From Bacillus sp. FJAT-45037 (lineage in GTDB: Bacteria; Bacillota; Bacilli; Bacillales; Bacillaceae_D), in contig NZ_KZ454938.1 of assembly GCF_002797325.1 (NCBI RefSeq), positions 2,368,267 through 2,432,266 of the forward strand: a DNA stretch of 64,000 nt, read 5' to 3'. Positions 1-52,804 of the stretch are shown here, piece by piece. The notes under the pieces are model-generated. The model was given only the letters and a program-made list of their open reading frames with translations. It was not told the origin of the DNA and did no database searches. Position 1 is the stretch's first letter; each line of letters begins with the position of its first letter. The position numbers and the translations under genes were made by a program.

Positions 1-639
1 AACTTCCCACTCATGTGATAGATATAGTTGAACAGACCAGCTTGGAAAGACTTGCTCAAGTGCTGTAATAATCTGTTTTAACACTTCACCAATATCCATT
101 GAACTATGACATTTTTTTGTTACTTGCATGAGGATGTTTCGTTTTAACCAAATACCCTCAACTTTTTCACGTTCATGTGCCTCGGCAAGCAATGATTGCA
201 TCGCATCATTTGGCAATAAGCTAGCAGCAAAAGAATTCGCTTGTTCTTTTAAATTAAACGTATGAATGATAAAGCCATATCTTTGATCTTTTTTTGAGAG
301 GGGAACACAGACGTTCCACTTCACTTGATCTGTTAATATTGCTTCATGAACGAGAGAAAATGGTTCTACCTCGCTATCGACTTTCACTAAATGATTGATC
401 CACTCGTAACTGAAAGATTTCACTTCTTCCATTTCATTCACACAAGCTAATTTTAATCGATCACCCTTTTTAACATAGACTGAAACCGACTCAATTTCAT
501 TCTCTTGTCCAATCCTTTGAGCCATTCGCTGATAAGCAGATACTAGTGGTCTGAAATTGATTTCATACTTTGATTCGGCTAACCAATCTTCTACATTCAT
601 TTTCCGTGTCGCTACCTTTTTATCTAAATGCTCCATCAT
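1..639 (-). CDS. dgcP: GAF-domain protein, N-terminal part (DgcP/YtrP-like diguanylate cyclase), runs off the window
   Basis: A frame open from an ATG at 639 to the window edge gives 213 residues with no stop. It starts MMEHLDKKVATRK and continues through a mixed alpha/beta region with a GAF-like look (motif WNVCVPLSKKDQRYGFIIH near residues 107-125). In B. subtilis the gene next to rpsD is ytrP/dgcP, which has GAF modules followed by GGDEF and makes cyclic di-GMP. The GGDEF part would lie outside this window, so the enzymatic call rests on synteny and length only. GGTGG upstream is a possible ribosome binding site. A fRMsr-type GAF protein is an alternative. Confidence 0.6.
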   Translation of the reverse strand, partial: MMEHLDKKVATRKMNVEDWLAESKYEINFRPLVSAYQRMAQRIGQENEIESVSVYVKKGDRLKLACVNEMEEVKSFSYEWINHLVKVDSEVEPFSLVHEAILTDQVKWNVCVPLSKKDQRYGFIIHTFNLKEQANSFAASLLPNDAMQSLLAEAHEREKVEGIWLKRNILMQVTKKCHSSMDIGEVLKQIITALEQVFPSWSVQLYLSHEWEV

Positions 640-46604: not shown

Positions 46605-46813
46605 GTTTTCCTCCTATGTAAACAATACAATTTCTACAAGAATTTAAGCACTAATAAGAATTGTAGCATAGAGAAGAAAGAATAATGGTATGATTTTTTC
46701 CGAAATTGATTATGCCCTATTTTCATAAAGTTCTGATTCTAATGGTCATCTTCCTTTTCTACATAAAAAATGCTACTCTAAAACAATCAATTATAGCGAA
46801 TTAGGTGATAAAT

Positions 46814-48094
46814 ATGAATAAATCAGTCATTGTCATTGGAGGTGGCCCTGCTGGATTGATGGCTTCGATTGCCGCAGCCGAGCACGGTGCTTCTGTTACA
46901 TTACTTGATAAAGGTGACAAACTTGGACGAAAATTAGCGATCTCTGGTGGGGGACGCTGCAATGTCACAAATCGTATGGAGCTTCAAGATTTAATCGCTC
47001 ATATTCCTGGTAACGGACGTTTTATGCATAGTCCATTCTCTGTCTTTAATAATGAAGATATCATTTCTTTCTTTGAAGGCTTAGGAATTGAACTGAAGGA
47101 AGAAGACCGAGGACGAATGTTTCCTGTCAATGATAAGGCGACAACAGTCGTCGCGACTCTTCTCAATCGAATTCGGGCATTAAATGTCAAGATACGCACG
47201 AATACAGCTGTGGAAACGATTGAGTTTGAAGATCAGAAAGTCCATGCTGTCTTGTTAAGAGATGGTCAGCGTTTAGTAACGGATGCTGTGATTGTTGCAA
47301 CAGGAGGCAAGTCGGTTCCTCACACAGGGAGTACAGGTGATGCCTATCCTTGGGCAGAAAAAGCAGGACATACCATTACTGAGCTTTACCCGACTGAGGT
47401 GCCGATCACTTCTACGGAACGATTTATTAAACAAAAACAACTGCAAGGACTCTCGTTAAGGGACATTCATCTTTCTGTTATCAACCCTAAAGGCAAAATC
47501 ATCAAAACACATGAGGGTGATATGATCTTTACCCATTTCGGAATCTCAGGTCCTGCCGCACTTCGTTGCAGTCAGTATGTGGTTAAGGCGCTGAAAAAAT
47601 TTAAAACAAGGACCATTAAAATGCAAATTGATTTATTCCCTACGCAACACACTGAAGTTATTTTTCAAGATTTGATCAAGCGTGTGAAAGAAGAACCGAA
47701 AAAAGCTCTGAAAAATTTATTAAAGGGCCTTGTTCCAGAACGTTTCTTATTGTTTATGTTTGATCAATTAGAGTTAGAGAGTTCACAAGCAGCCAATACA
47801 TTTTCACATGACAAACTAAAAGAGATTGCTTCTTTTTGTAAAAGCTTCTCCTTCCAAGTAGATGGAACTCTTTCCATCGATAAAGCCTTCGTCACTGGAG
47901 GCGGTGTTTCTGTTAAGGAAGTCGCGCCAAAAACTATGGAATCAAAAAAGAAAGAAGGCTTGTTTTTCTGTGGAGAAGTTTTAGATATTCACGGATATAC
48001 AGGAGGATATAATATCACTTGTGCCTTTTCCACAGGCTATACAGCAGGAAAAGCAGCGGGTGAACTTGTGAATAAGTCCATCCTAGAAAAATAA
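46814..48094 (+). CDS. ytfP: YtfP, FAD-binding HI0933-like flavoprotein
   Basis: The 426 residues start with a Rossmann motif [20 protein letters not shown] (about 5-24), then [16 protein letters not shown] (about 39-54), and near the end [17 protein letters not shown], which are diagnostic for the HI0933/YhiN family. These are NAD(P)/FAD-dependent oxidoreductases of unclear substrate. The ATG at 46814 follows AGGTGA; a GTG three codons earlier sits on that site. Its last codons contain a DnaA-box-like TGTGAATAA. Confidence 0.92.
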
Positions 48095-48330
48095 GTTATT
48101 CACATGTTCATAGAAGAGTTAGACCGATTTATCTGTGCCTACGACTAAGTACTCTAATCCCTGTGCATAACCTTGTGTATTACACACAGGTTATGCACAG
48201 ACTGTTAGTATTATCTGAAAATTTGTTGATAACGCTTTCCTTGTACACAATAATCTGTGGATTTATTCGTGTGGTTGAATGTTCATTCATTTCTACTAGA
48301 GGTAGACTACGATTATCCACATGTTTATAA
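48067..48330. promoter_or_regulatory. Cluster of DnaA-box-like sites in a convergent gap
   Basis: Five sites fit the DnaA box TTATNCACA: TGTGAATAA 48067-48075 (reverse), TTATTCACA 48096-48104, TGTGCATAA 48162-48170 (reverse), TTATGCACA 48191-48199 and TTATCCACA 48313-48321. Weaker ones are TGTTGATAA 48224-48232, TGTGGATTT 48256-48264 and TGTTTATAA 48322-48330. The first two pairs share the same inverted geometry with a 20-base gap. The flanking genes are convergent, so no promoter is expected. DnaA binding is inferred from sequence only. Confidence 0.65.
48161..48200. repeat. 40-base inverted repeat
   Basis: CTGTGCATAACC (48161-48172) and GGTTATGCACAG (48189-48200) are exact complements. The centre TTGTGTATTACACACA is itself near-palindromic. 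No T run follows, so it is not a typical terminator. Confidence 0.85.
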
Positions 48331-48331
48331 C

Positions 48332-48694
48332 TTAAGCCCGTGCAATCATTTCAACTCGATTCCCAAAAGGATCTCTAAATTCAAAACGTTCATGCCCTGG
48401 AATGGGAACAGAATCTACTAGATCAATCCCCTCGTGCTCTAGCACTTCTCTCCAATAATTGATGTCTTCTACTTCATAAGCCAAATGGGCCTTTGTTACG
48501 AAGCGGTCAAACCCTTCCTCGGTCCCTACATGAACTTCAAAGTTTCCTACTCGTAACCAAAAACCCCCACGTCCTTTTAAAGCATTTGGCTTCTCTACCT
48601 CTTCAAGACTTAACACTCGGCAATAAAAGTCTCTCCCGGCCTCTTCTTTCCCCTGTGGAATTGTGATCTGTGCGTGATGCAGACCAATAATCAT
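48332..48694 (-). CDS. VOC (glyoxalase/bleomycin-resistance fold) protein
   Basis: The 120 residues form a single vicinal-oxygen-chelate unit with metal-type residues in GLHHAQITIP (His, about 4-13), VHVGTEEGF, KAHLAYEVEDINYWREVL and RFEFRDPFGNRVEMI. Members include glyoxalase I, dioxygenases and antibiotic-binding proteins; the substrate here is unknown and drug resistance should not be assumed. The ATG at 48694 follows GAGGTGA by six bases. Confidence 0.85.
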   Translation of the reverse strand: MIIGLHHAQITIPQGKEEAGRDFYCRVLSLEEVEKPNALKGRGGFWLRVGNFEVHVGTEEGFDRFVTKAHLAYEVEDINYWREVLEHEGIDLVDSVPIPGHERFEFRDPFGNRVEMIARA

Positions 48695-48826
48695 AACCAT
48701 TCACCTCTTTCACTTCTTTATAGATACCTTCTACAGTCAATTGTTATTTTCCTTTTAATATCGCTTCCTTCAAACAAAATCAATTGTATATTTCGTATTC
48801 TTTTAATCTTTTTCTCACAATAAAAA

Positions 48827-48915: not shown

Positions 48916-50181
48916 TTACTCCACGACTCTTCTCACTACAGTTCGATACAATAGCTCCGTCCCTTGTGAAATGTCATCAAATTCTGCACTTTCTTTTGGA
49001 TTATGACTGATTCCATCTTTACAACGTACAAAGATCATTCCATAGTCACACACTGTCGACATCGCGATCGCATCATGAAACGGTCCGCTCATCAATTCAG
49101 GAATTGCTTCTCCGTAAATATCATTAGCAGCGCTTCGCATATCGTTCATAATGGATTCCGCACAATATCTCGGTTCACTTTCTGTGTCTACACGGATGGT
49201 GCTTGTCACCTGATGCTTCTCGCAGATTTGATCAATCGCTGGATAAAGAACAGCCTCTATATCTCTTCTTCGCCCAAGGTCAATGTCACGAAGATCGATT
49301 GTAAAACGCACTCTTTCTGGAATGATGTTTCTCGAATTTGGGAAAACTTCCATCTTTCCAACAGTTGCAACAGTTGGCGCTTCTGGATCTAGAGAGGCAA
49401 GCTCATGTAAGGTCAGCGTAATTTCTGCTGCAGCAACAAGCGCATCTTGTCTGTACGACATAGGTACGGACCCAGCGTGACCAGCAAACCCTTGAAGTTC
49501 AACCGTTAACCAAAGCGGTCCTGAGATACCCGTCACAATGCCAACAGGCAATCCGGCACGATCTAAAATAGGCCCCTGTTCGATATGCATTTCAATAAAT
49601 TCTCCGATGCGTCCTGTCGGGTAAACAGATTCTTCAAACTCGCCAGGATTACATCCAAATTCAATCAATGCATCCTTCCGTGAAATTCCGTCTTTATCGA
49701 CTCGTTCAAGCTCACCTTCTTCGAGTTGATTTAAGATTCCTCGTACACCAAACAATCCTTTATCAAATCGACAACCCTCCTCATCAGAAAAGGCAATCAC
49801 TTCGATTGTTCGTTTCGGCTTTAATCCTTTATCCTTCATCGTCTGAATTACTTCAAGTGCACCTAGTACACCGACTGTTCCATCAAACTGCCCTCCATAT
49901 GGCTGGCTGTCGATATGAGAGCCGAGTACTAAAATCGGCAAAGAATCGTCCTCACCTACCCATTGTCCAATCAGATTACCAAAATCATCAATTCTCGTAT
50001 CCAATCCTGCATCTTCCATCCATCTTTTCACTTGTAAGACAGCTTGCTTATCCTCTTTTGATAATGTAAGGCGACATACTCCCGTCTCACCAATCTTTCC
50101 AATCTCCGCTAAGCATTCCAGTCTTGTCTGTAATCTATCATGGTTAACGGTTAAACTAGACAAGGAAAAAGATGTCTTCAT
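48916..50181 (-). CDS. Zn-dependent M20 amidohydrolase (allantoate/N-carbamoyl amino acid type)
   Basis: The 421 residues contain LVLGSHIDSQPYGGQFDGTV (about 82-101, metal His-Asp), IEVIAFSDEEGCRFDKGLFG (Glu-Glu), EMHIEQGPILDRAGLPVG and MSGPFHDAIAMSTVCDYGMI. This set marks the hydantoinase/carbamoylase branch: allantoate amidohydrolase, N-carbamoyl-L-amino acid hydrolase or beta-ureidopropionase. No purine or hydantoin genes are adjacent, so the substrate is open. The ATG at 50181 follows GGAGG by seven bases. Confidence 0.88.
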   Translation of the reverse strand: MKTSFSLSSLTVNHDRLQTRLECLAEIGKIGETGVCRLTLSKEDKQAVLQVKRWMEDAGLDTRIDDFGNLIGQWVGEDDSLPILVLGSHIDSQPYGGQFDGTVGVLGALEVIQTMKDKGLKPKRTIEVIAFSDEEGCRFDKGLFGVRGILNQLEEGELERVDKDGISRKDALIEFGCNPGEFEESVYPTGRIGEFIEMHIEQGPILDRAGLPVGIVTGISGPLWLTVELQGFAGHAGSVPMSYRQDALVAAAEITLTLHELASLDPEAPTVATVGKMEVFPNSRNIIPERVRFTIDLRDIDLGRRRDIEAVLYPAIDQICEKHQVTSTIRVDTESEPRYCAESIMNDMRSAANDIYGEAIPELMSGPFHDAIAMSTVCDYGMIFVRCKDGISHNPKESAEFDDISQGTELLYRTVVRRVVE

Positions 50182-50317
50182 ATGAATCCCTCCAGTTTGT
50201 ATTTCTCCTTGATTATATTTAAAATTTTCAATCTTTTCACTATGCAACATGTTCTTATCTCATTGACTTCATTAGACATTTTGTAAAATAGAGAGATGCT
50301 CTCCACAAAATAGTAAA

Positions 50318-50380: not shown

Positions 50381-52804
50381 TTACCCTACAACAATATTAA
50401 CTAACTTCCCTGGTACAGCAATGACTTTACGTATAGTTTTATCGCCAATTGCTTCTTGGACTTTGTCATCATTCTTTGCAATCTCTTCCATTTGTTCGCG
50501 AGTTGCATCTGCTGGAATGATAAGTTTTGCGCGAACTTTGCCGTTAAGTTGTACAACGACTTCTACTTCATTTTCCACAAGTAGAGCTTCGTCATACGTT
50601 GGCCATGCTACATAAGAAATCGTTTCTTGATGACCGAACTTCTCCCATAACTCTTCAGCGAGATGAGGAGCAAGTGGTGCCAATAACTTAACGAAACCTT
50701 CCATTAGTTCACGTGGAAGTGTCTCTTGCTTGTAGGCATCGTTGATAAAGACCATCATTTGTGAGATTCCTACATTGAAACGAAGTCCTTCAAAGTCTTC
50801 TGTTACTTTCTTTACTGTTTGATGATACGTGCGGACAAACTCTTCTGACCCCTCCACTGCTTGGATTGCTGGGTTCAGTTCATTTGTCGACTCATCGATA
50901 AATAAACGCCAAATACGATCGAGGAATCGACGGGCTCCATCTAATCCGTTTGCTGACCACGCAATCGATGCATCAAGTGGTCCCATAAACATTTCGTATA
51001 AACGTAATGTATCAGCACCATGGCTTTCAACGATGTCATCTGGGTTTACAACATTTCCTTTTGACTTACTCATCTTCTCGTTGTTTTCACCTAGGATCAT
51101 GCCTTGGTTGTATAGCTTTTGGAAAGGCTCTTTTGTTGGTACCACACCTAAGTCGTAAAGGAACTTATGCCAGAATCGTGCGTAAAGTAAGTGAAGAACC
51201 GCATGCTCTGCTCCCCCTACATAAATATCAACCGGCAGCCATTGCTTTAGTTTTTCTGGGTCAGCTAGTGCCTCGCTGTTGTTTGGGTCAATGTAACGTA
51301 GGTAATACCAACAACTACCTGCCCAGTTTGGCATCGTATTTGTTTCACGGCGGCCTTTCATCCCAGTTTTAGGATCTGTTACATGAAGCCATTCTTTGTT
51401 ATTAGCAAGCGGTGATTCTCCAGTATCTGATGGTTTAATTTCCTTCATCATAGGCAATGTTAGTGGCAGCTCATTCTCCGGAACAGCTGTCATCGTGCCA
51501 TCTTCCCAATGAATCATTGGAATGGGTTCGCCCCAATAACGTTGGCGGCTAAATAACCAGTCACGCAGACGGTAGGTTACTTTTTTCTTTCCGAAATAAT
51601 TCGCTTCAAGCCATTCGATCATATTTGAGATTGCTGCTTCTTTTTCTAATCCATTTAAGAAATCAGAGTTCACATGTTCTCCATCACCTGTGTACGCTTC
51701 TTTCTCCACATCGCCACCAGCAACCACTTCAACAATCGATAGATCAAATGCTTTTGCAAATTCATAATCACGCTCATCATGTGCAGGAACAGCCATAATC
51801 GCGCCTGTTCCGTAACTAACAAGAACATAATCAGCAATCCAAATTGGAATACGAGCACCATTTACGGGATTCACGGCAAAGGCCCCAGTAAAGACACCTG
51901 TTTTTTCTTTAGAAAGTTCCGTGCGCTCTAGATCACTCTTAAGAGCCACTTCTTTGCGATATTGTTTAACGGCTTCTTGTTGCTCTGCCGTTGTAATCGT
52001 GTCAACAAGCTTATGCTCAGGAGCAAGCACCATGTACGTTGCGCCAAATAAAGTATCAGGACGCGTCGTGAACACATCGACTTTTTCCTCGTCATGACCA
52101 TCTACTTTAAATGTCACTTCTGCTCCTTCAGAACGACCAATCCAGTTACGTTGCATATCTTTAATACTTTCAGACCAATCTAACTCATCTAAGTCTTCTA
52201 AAAGACGATCAGCGTAAGCCGTTATTTTAAGCATCCATTGTTTCATCGGACGGCGTTCAACAGGATGACCTCCTCGCTCACTTTTCCCGTCAATGACTTC
52301 CTCGTTAGCAAGAACCGTTCCAAGAGCCGGACACCAGTTCACTGCTACTTCATCGATATAAGCAAGGTCCTTTTCATAGAGTTTTAAGAAGATCCATTGC
52401 GTCCATTTATAGTAATCTGGATCAATCGTATTAACCTCACGATCCCAATCATAGGAGAATCCTAGTGATTTAATTTGACGACGGAACGTATCAATATTTT
52501 TAAGGGTAAATTCTGCTGGGTCATTTCCTGTATCAAGAGCATATTGTTCTGCCGGAAGTCCAAACGCATCCCATCCCATTGGGTGAAGGACGTTATGACC
52601 TTGCATACGTTTTAAACGTGAGAGGATATCTGTTGCCGTGTAGCCTTCTGGATGACCAACATGCAATCCAGCTCCTGATGGGAACGGAAACATATCAAGT
52701 GCATAAAATTTCGGCTTATCTGCATCCTCTGTTGTACGGAATGTTTTATTTTCTTCCCAATGCTTTTGCCACTTCTTTTCAATCTCTACATGTGAAAACG
52801 ACAT
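50381..52804 (-). CDS. leuS: Leucyl-tRNA synthetase
   Basis: LeuRS charges tRNA-Leu and edits misacylated products. The 807 residues include the HIGH-type motif [20 protein letters not shown] (about 40-59), the CP1 editing domain (about 225-420; [14 protein letters not shown]), the KMSKS loop [19 protein letters not shown] (about 573-591), and the anticodon-binding and C-terminal domains. Length is close to B. subtilis LeuS (804). It is controlled by a leucine T-box at 52921-53180. Confidence 0.98.

Follow-up and report, generated by a model that had tools for sequence, protein, structure and literature searches.

A clade-specific DnaA-box cluster beside ytfP in Bacillus sp. FJAT-45037

The region just past ytfP in Bacillus sp. 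FJAT-45037 carries a dense group of DnaA boxes, and this group is a real, clade-specific addition to the known DnaA-box clusters (DBCs) of Bacillus. We put at roughly 65% the probability that it is a DBC of the B. subtilis type, bound cooperatively by DnaA and withholding the protein from oriC, which restrains re-initiation. Judged from the sequence, binding of DnaA at the cluster is very probable, and a restraining role in initiation, argued by analogy with B. subtilis, is slightly favoured. Positions refer to the window, the whole 64-kb stretch of DNA that was analyzed, unless a contig is given. The gene names ytfP, gcp, yydA, and ywlB are presumed.

A search of the 64-kb window returned five exact matches to the DnaA-box pattern TTATNCACA, all of them inside 48067-48321, as the original prediction had stated for an interval of 265 bases. 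The same prediction listed three sites with one or two mismatches; we found instead five one-mismatch sites in 48067-48330, so that ten boxes, half of them exact and half with one mismatch, lie in 264 bp (Table 1). One exact box falls within the 3' end of ytfP and the remaining boxes occupy the gap between ytfP and a convergent gene of the VOC/glyoxalase fold, so the cluster was rightly placed mostly between convergent genes. The sites form inverted pairs, with 13-bp perfect arms at 48161-48173 and 48188-48200.

Table 1. Genes and DnaA boxes at the ytfP cluster (window positions)
Feature	Position	Strand	Remark
ytfP, aminoacetone oxidase family FAD-binding enzyme (TIGR00275)	46805..48094	+	constant neighbour of the cluster
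DnaA box TTATTCACA, exact	48067..48075	-	inside ytfP 3' end; not retained in aligned same-genus loci
DnaA box TTATTCACA, exact	48096..48104	+	unchanged in aligned same-genus loci
DnaA box TTATGCACA, exact	48162..48170	-	box 1 of conserved triad
Weak box TAATACACA, 1 mismatch	48174..48182	-	
Weak box TTACACACA, 1 mismatch	48180..48188	+	middle box of triad
DnaA box TTATGCACA, exact	48191..48199	+	last box of triad
Weak box TTATCAACA, 1 mismatch	48224..48232	-	unchanged in aligned same-genus loci
Weak box TTGTACACA, 1 mismatch	48241..48249	+	different one-mismatch box at same position in same-genus loci
DnaA box TTATCCACA, exact	48313..48321	+	right after VOC stop; L001 and L002 without exact counterpart
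Weak box TTATAAACA, 1 mismatch	48322..48330	-	
VOC/glyoxalase-fold gene (PF00903)	48332..48700	-	convergent to ytfP
Hydantoinase/carbamoylase family amidase gene	48916..50250	-	
leuS	50381..52804	-	convergent flank, within 2.5 kb, in 19/23 named carriers

Adjoining the triad, the 38 bases at 48202-48239 have a single variable position in the aligned same-genus rows (5 rows, 4 genomes). This segment contains one weak box only, and it may be a site for another protein.

Shuffled versions of the 64-kb window held 2.75 exact sites on average against the 5 observed, and 12 of 100 shuffles reached 5; a count of five is therefore ordinary for the window, and it is the clustering that is unusual. Across the whole genome there are 178 exact TTATNCACA sites in 3,373,087 bp, compared with 130 for the pattern read backward. 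This is about one site per 19 kb, and shuffles gave about one per 23 kb, which makes the earlier chance estimate of about one per 8 kb too high. On the main contig, C1 (3,246,732 bp of the 3.37-Mb genome), 175 of the 178 sites were placed; the other three are assigned to contig C2 by subtraction, and the 20 of its 124.5 kb that were read contain no site. The original prediction had proposed a genome-wide density ranking, which puts the window first: the ytfP run is the sole one on the main contig with five exact sites in 265 or 300 bp, and equal clusters at random sites were not seen. The runners-up in 265 bp are gcp with 4, ywlC with 3 (4 in 300 bp), and oriC with 2; when the interval is widened to 400 bp, the gcp run has 5 as well. 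Placing 178 sites at random, repeated 20,000 times, never gave more than 3 per 265 bp, and from this result together with the window shuffles we reject chance as the origin of the cluster.

The dnaA domain of this genome lies at C1:3001779, placing the cluster 585 kb from dnaA, or about 65 degrees if the main contig is a closed chromosome. Exact boxes are sparser around dnaA than in the ytfP cluster. In the surrounding interval (G000:C1:3000995-3002891), the DnaA coding region is preceded by three exact boxes and followed by two, more widely spaced. Replication origins are likewise clusters of DnaA boxes, which would allow the ytfP cluster to be a second or relic origin; however, dnaA has its own boxes 585 kb away, and no replication gene was seen by eye among the longer open reading frames of the window, making this reading barely credible.

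To follow the cluster through related genomes, we used the best 80 of 95 confirmed ytfP loci, a named set that favours near relatives and does not include B. subtilis. A locus was called a carrier when at least 5 boxes with at most one mismatch lie from -60 to +300 of the ytfP stop. Box counts there are bimodal, at 0-3 or 5-10, and 23 of these best 80 named loci are carriers. In the 23 carriers the interval totals 8,280 bp and contains 80 exact boxes, compared with 24 in their 203,921 bp of flanking sequence. In the 57 non-carriers it nominally totals 20,520 bp and contains none, compared with 21 in 482,279 bp of flanking sequence. Two non-carriers, L014 and L071, extend less than 300 bp past ytfP and were omitted from the tree. 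Named carriers include Alkalihalophilus, Halalkalibacter, Alkalihalobacterium, Alkalihalobacillus, Salibacterium, Alteribacillus, and Salsuginibacillus. A further search of relatives matched ytfP in 39 of 40 genomes, and among the 30 loci listed there were 11 carriers (the window's own included) and 19 loci without the cluster. All three other genomes of the same genus carry it, two of them being L001 and L002 again. Retention beside ytfP in relatives, proposed as a check at the outset, was thus found in 23 of the 80 named loci and 3 of 3 same-genus genomes; the sets of loci overlap, with L141 and L142 repeating L001 and L002 and five named loci recurring in the 397-genome search described below. 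Among the open-licence papers searched, no report of a DnaA-box cluster at ytfP or leuS was found.

In a ytfP tree of 79 rows, all 24 carriers (window included) fall inside one clade of 37 rows with an SH-aLRT support of 84, and the carrier state requires 6 changes, compared with 20.8 when shuffled. By parsimony this reads as one gain followed by several apparent losses, for example in Shouchella with Alkalicoccobacillus, gain and loss being inseparable by the tree alone. The cluster is dispensable, since 57 of the 80 named loci and 19 of the 30 relatives' loci lack it and it has apparently been lost repeatedly within the clade. Replacement clusters in non-carriers were sampled by searching 31 genomes with box pairs. 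Of 20 regions examined, 9 lie at tsaD/gcp, 3 at rlmH/yydA, 2 at leuS, and 1 at ywlC; the other five comprise one at dnaA, placed by eye (L177), and four elsewhere (L172, L173, L180, and L181). An exact pair spaced by 13 bp, present in many genomes, was considered as a mark of oriC and dropped, since the pair at L188 adjoins rlmH/yydA.

With respect to the flanking genes, leuS is convergent to ytfP at a distance of 0.2-0.7 kb in 12 of the 23 named carriers and of 1.0-2.4 kb in 7; it is absent from the stretch fetched in the remaining 4. Neither the VOC gene nor the amidase gene was found in any of the named loci (80, the best of 95 confirmed) or in the other same-genus loci. The segment 48332-50250, which holds these two genes between ytfP and leuS, therefore looks from sequence comparison like a recent insertion or rearrangement beside the cluster. 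The cluster goes with ytfP, and the VOC gene offers no explanation for it, because the right-hand neighbour differs among carriers. This arrangement fits the original argument that promoter control is unlikely, with leuS convergent within 2.5 kb in most carriers and the VOC neighbour found only in the window. A local action is nevertheless conceivable, in which DnaA would sit between the convergent genes and stop read-through or adjust the expression of ytfP, leuS, or the VOC gene. In 19 of the 23 named carriers leuS is convergent at no more than 2.5 kb, which would suit such a role, as would the result that no terminator-like site was found at 47900-48500, and according to the relevant passage of PMC8203912 several B. 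subtilis DBCs control adjacent genes. We consider it improbable, given that the right-hand neighbour is not constant, that L001 and L002 have a hairpin followed by a T-run beyond the boxes (by eye), and that promoter-like matches in the region number 1 against 1.7 expected by chance.

The inverted repeats could instead act in RNA, forming a hairpin at the 3' end of the mRNA from each convergent gene. The gap folds at -69.2 kcal/mol (z -5.2) with 13-bp perfect arms, and several relatives fold well too. Inverted boxes, however, fold by construction, and across 25 segments the fold z ranges from -5.5 to +0.8. The free fifth base of the box shows no covariation: a perfect stem occurs in 3 of 18 triads, where about 5 would be expected from base use (worked by hand). 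The commonest spacing among carriers is moreover that of direct rather than inverted boxes, namely pairs 12 bp apart (20 of 24 carriers), and 47800-48800 has no Rfam match. An RNA role is thus very improbable. With no covariation, no Rfam match, and no terminator-like match, RNA or a terminator was rejected as the identity of the element.

A triad of the form (-)14-18(+)11-13(+) occurs in 17 of 24 carriers, against a mean of 0.11 and a maximum of 3 with random positions, a comparison in which the triad limits were chosen after the spacings had been seen and the loci are related, not independent. The triad is missing in the other 7 carriers. We then searched 397 genomes of the order with a strict version of the triad and obtained 16 places in 14 genomes, with none for a backward control; the remaining 383 genomes lack it. 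These places lie at ytfP (7), leuS (3), ywlC (4), and tsaD/gcp (2), so that each strict-triad match sits at ytfP/leuS or at a known DBC locus. Seven of the 16 (the window, five named loci, and one leuS-side copy) were known before the definition was made. The 9 new places comprise 3 at ytfP/leuS and 6 at ywlC or gcp.

Longer box orders were also seen. The six-box order +12-23-53-18+12+ is present past ytfP in L015, L018, L020, and L023, and within 1 bp per gap in L030, which amounts to 5 of the 23 named carriers. Past leuS, it occurs in L182, L183, and L195 (with 54 in place of 53 in two of them) and in a looser form in L205 (22, 43); the four genomes with these leuS-side copies belong to a single genus-level group. 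The window does not have the six-box order, and its cluster was accordingly rejected as a six-box copy. At gcp, a different five-box order, (-)19-21(-)42-43(-)12(-)9(-), appears across genera in 5 of the 13 gcp places identified (L111, L107, L169, L170, and L179, the same as L084). Neither tested order, six-box or gcp five-box, was found in the 260-kb stretch that holds oriC.

Two genomes, those of Alkalihalobacterium elongatum (L189) and Alkalihalobacillus sp. BA299 (L190), have a near-identical six-box order both past ytfP and past leuS. The two clusters are about 9 and 6 kb apart, respectively, with other genes between them and only short sequence matches between the copies.

Box spacing is retained even where the intervening sequence has changed, which hints at an organised complex and not just a sink. 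The main rival to the DBC reading is accordingly a regulatory complex in which box order and spacing alter the state of DnaA or its hand-over, as in E. coli datA/DARS but without IHF; it takes this place because a sink needs no fixed spacing. Spacing that outlasts sequence, the occurrence of one six-box order past both ytfP and leuS, and the separate order kept at gcp (5 of 13 places) all speak for it. Cooperative binding alone, however, could select spacing, the six-box order, which the window lacks, is found in 5 of the 23 named carriers, and the gcp order is likewise restricted to 5 of 13. We know of no state-changing activity for any B. subtilis DBC. We therefore regard this alternative as unlikely. 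The broader proposal is similarly doubtful: Bacillaceae DBCs would be architected DnaA complexes with locus-specific box orders, not interchangeable sinks, serving as Gram-positive counterparts of datA/DARS that control the oligomeric or nucleotide state of DnaA.

A different kind of box arrangement was observed in Peribacillus asahii MA001 at L207 (G027:C16:42000-58500) and L208 (G027:C14:28000-35500), which hold a dispersed repeat consisting of a TCACAGTGAC palindrome followed by 2-3 DnaA boxes 11-12 bp apart. Allowing at most 2 mismatches, we counted 17 copies, of which contig C16 carries 12; seven other Peribacillus/Bacillus genomes have none. Between copies there is a gene for a Y1 (IS200-like) transposase (PF01797). 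The repeat is possibly a REP-like element that spreads DnaA boxes.

Returning to the reading of the ytfP cluster as a DBC, the genome of Bacillus sp. FJAT-45037 carries further box groups past tsaD/gcp, at ywlC (where the other flank, in the position of ywlB, is an acetyltransferase-like gene), at rlmH (yydA), and at sda (PF08970)/yqeG, the last two being looser than the gcp and ywlC groups. Gene names at these own-genome loci (L111, L112, L117, and L118) are HMM-based, with the ywlB-like match below the cut-off; other gene places were named by tblastn, or by eye where stated. Table 1 of PMC4447404 places gcp, ywlC, yydA, and sda/yqeG among the eight regions of B. subtilis that DnaA binds most strongly in vitro, the remaining four being two at oriC, ywcI/vpr, and trmE/jag; ytfP and leuS are not among the top 20 regions of that table. 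Four places of B. subtilis DBCs have box groups in this genome too, an indication that the DBC set as a whole is old.

Placement among replication-control sites, the type of function originally proposed, is supported by the genome-wide rank, by conservation beside ytfP, and by the spacing common to the ywlC and gcp clusters, which are strong B. subtilis DnaA binders. By analogy, titration would be the most likely function. According to the passages concerned in PMC5295017 and PMC13220808, B. subtilis with six DBCs removed initiates early, and re-inserting a single DBC partly relieves this. Simple titration is weakened, since about 10-fold overproduction of DnaA in B. subtilis gave no over-initiation in the account of PMC13220808; a passage of PMC5295017 likewise counts against it.

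We propose that a DBC settled past ytfP, before leuS, in the ancestor of a single Bacillaceae clade whose members are mostly alkaliphiles or halophiles. DnaA would occupy the boxes of this DBC cooperatively. Situated 585 kb from dnaA, the site would be copied fairly early in each replication round; the copied site would then take DnaA from oriC, and re-initiation would be held back. This restraint would be redundant with that of the clusters at gcp, ywlC, yydA, and sda/yqeG. A clade whose densest cluster stands at another place, together with natural absences (Shouchella, Alkalicoccobacillus) and second copies, offers a comparative test of DBC number, position, and architecture.

The cluster can be compared with three known systems. 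E. coli datA, a proposed DnaA sink or inactivator, resembles it in having five boxes outside oriC (described in part of PMC5295017). The activity that marks datA is IHF-assisted hydrolysis of DnaA-ATP. In the accounts given in PMC5295017 and PMC13220808, datA needs IHF and B. subtilis does without it; the likeness to datA, part of the original prediction, is an analogy only, because IHF is missing in B. subtilis. The oriC regions (the dnaA promoter and dnaA-dnaN) are likewise DnaA-box clusters, with fewer exact boxes in this genome than the ytfP cluster. The B. subtilis DBCs (gcp/ydiF, ywlC/ywlB, yydA, sda/yqeG, ywcI/vpr, and trmE/jag) share with it many boxes in about 300 bp, an intergenic position, and a location outside oriC, and the gcp/ydiF DBC also lies downstream of both neighbours. 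The strict triad is common to the ytfP cluster and the ywlC and gcp clusters of other genomes. Unlike the B. subtilis DBCs, the ytfP cluster stands past ytfP, is confined to one clade among the loci examined, and has its own box order.
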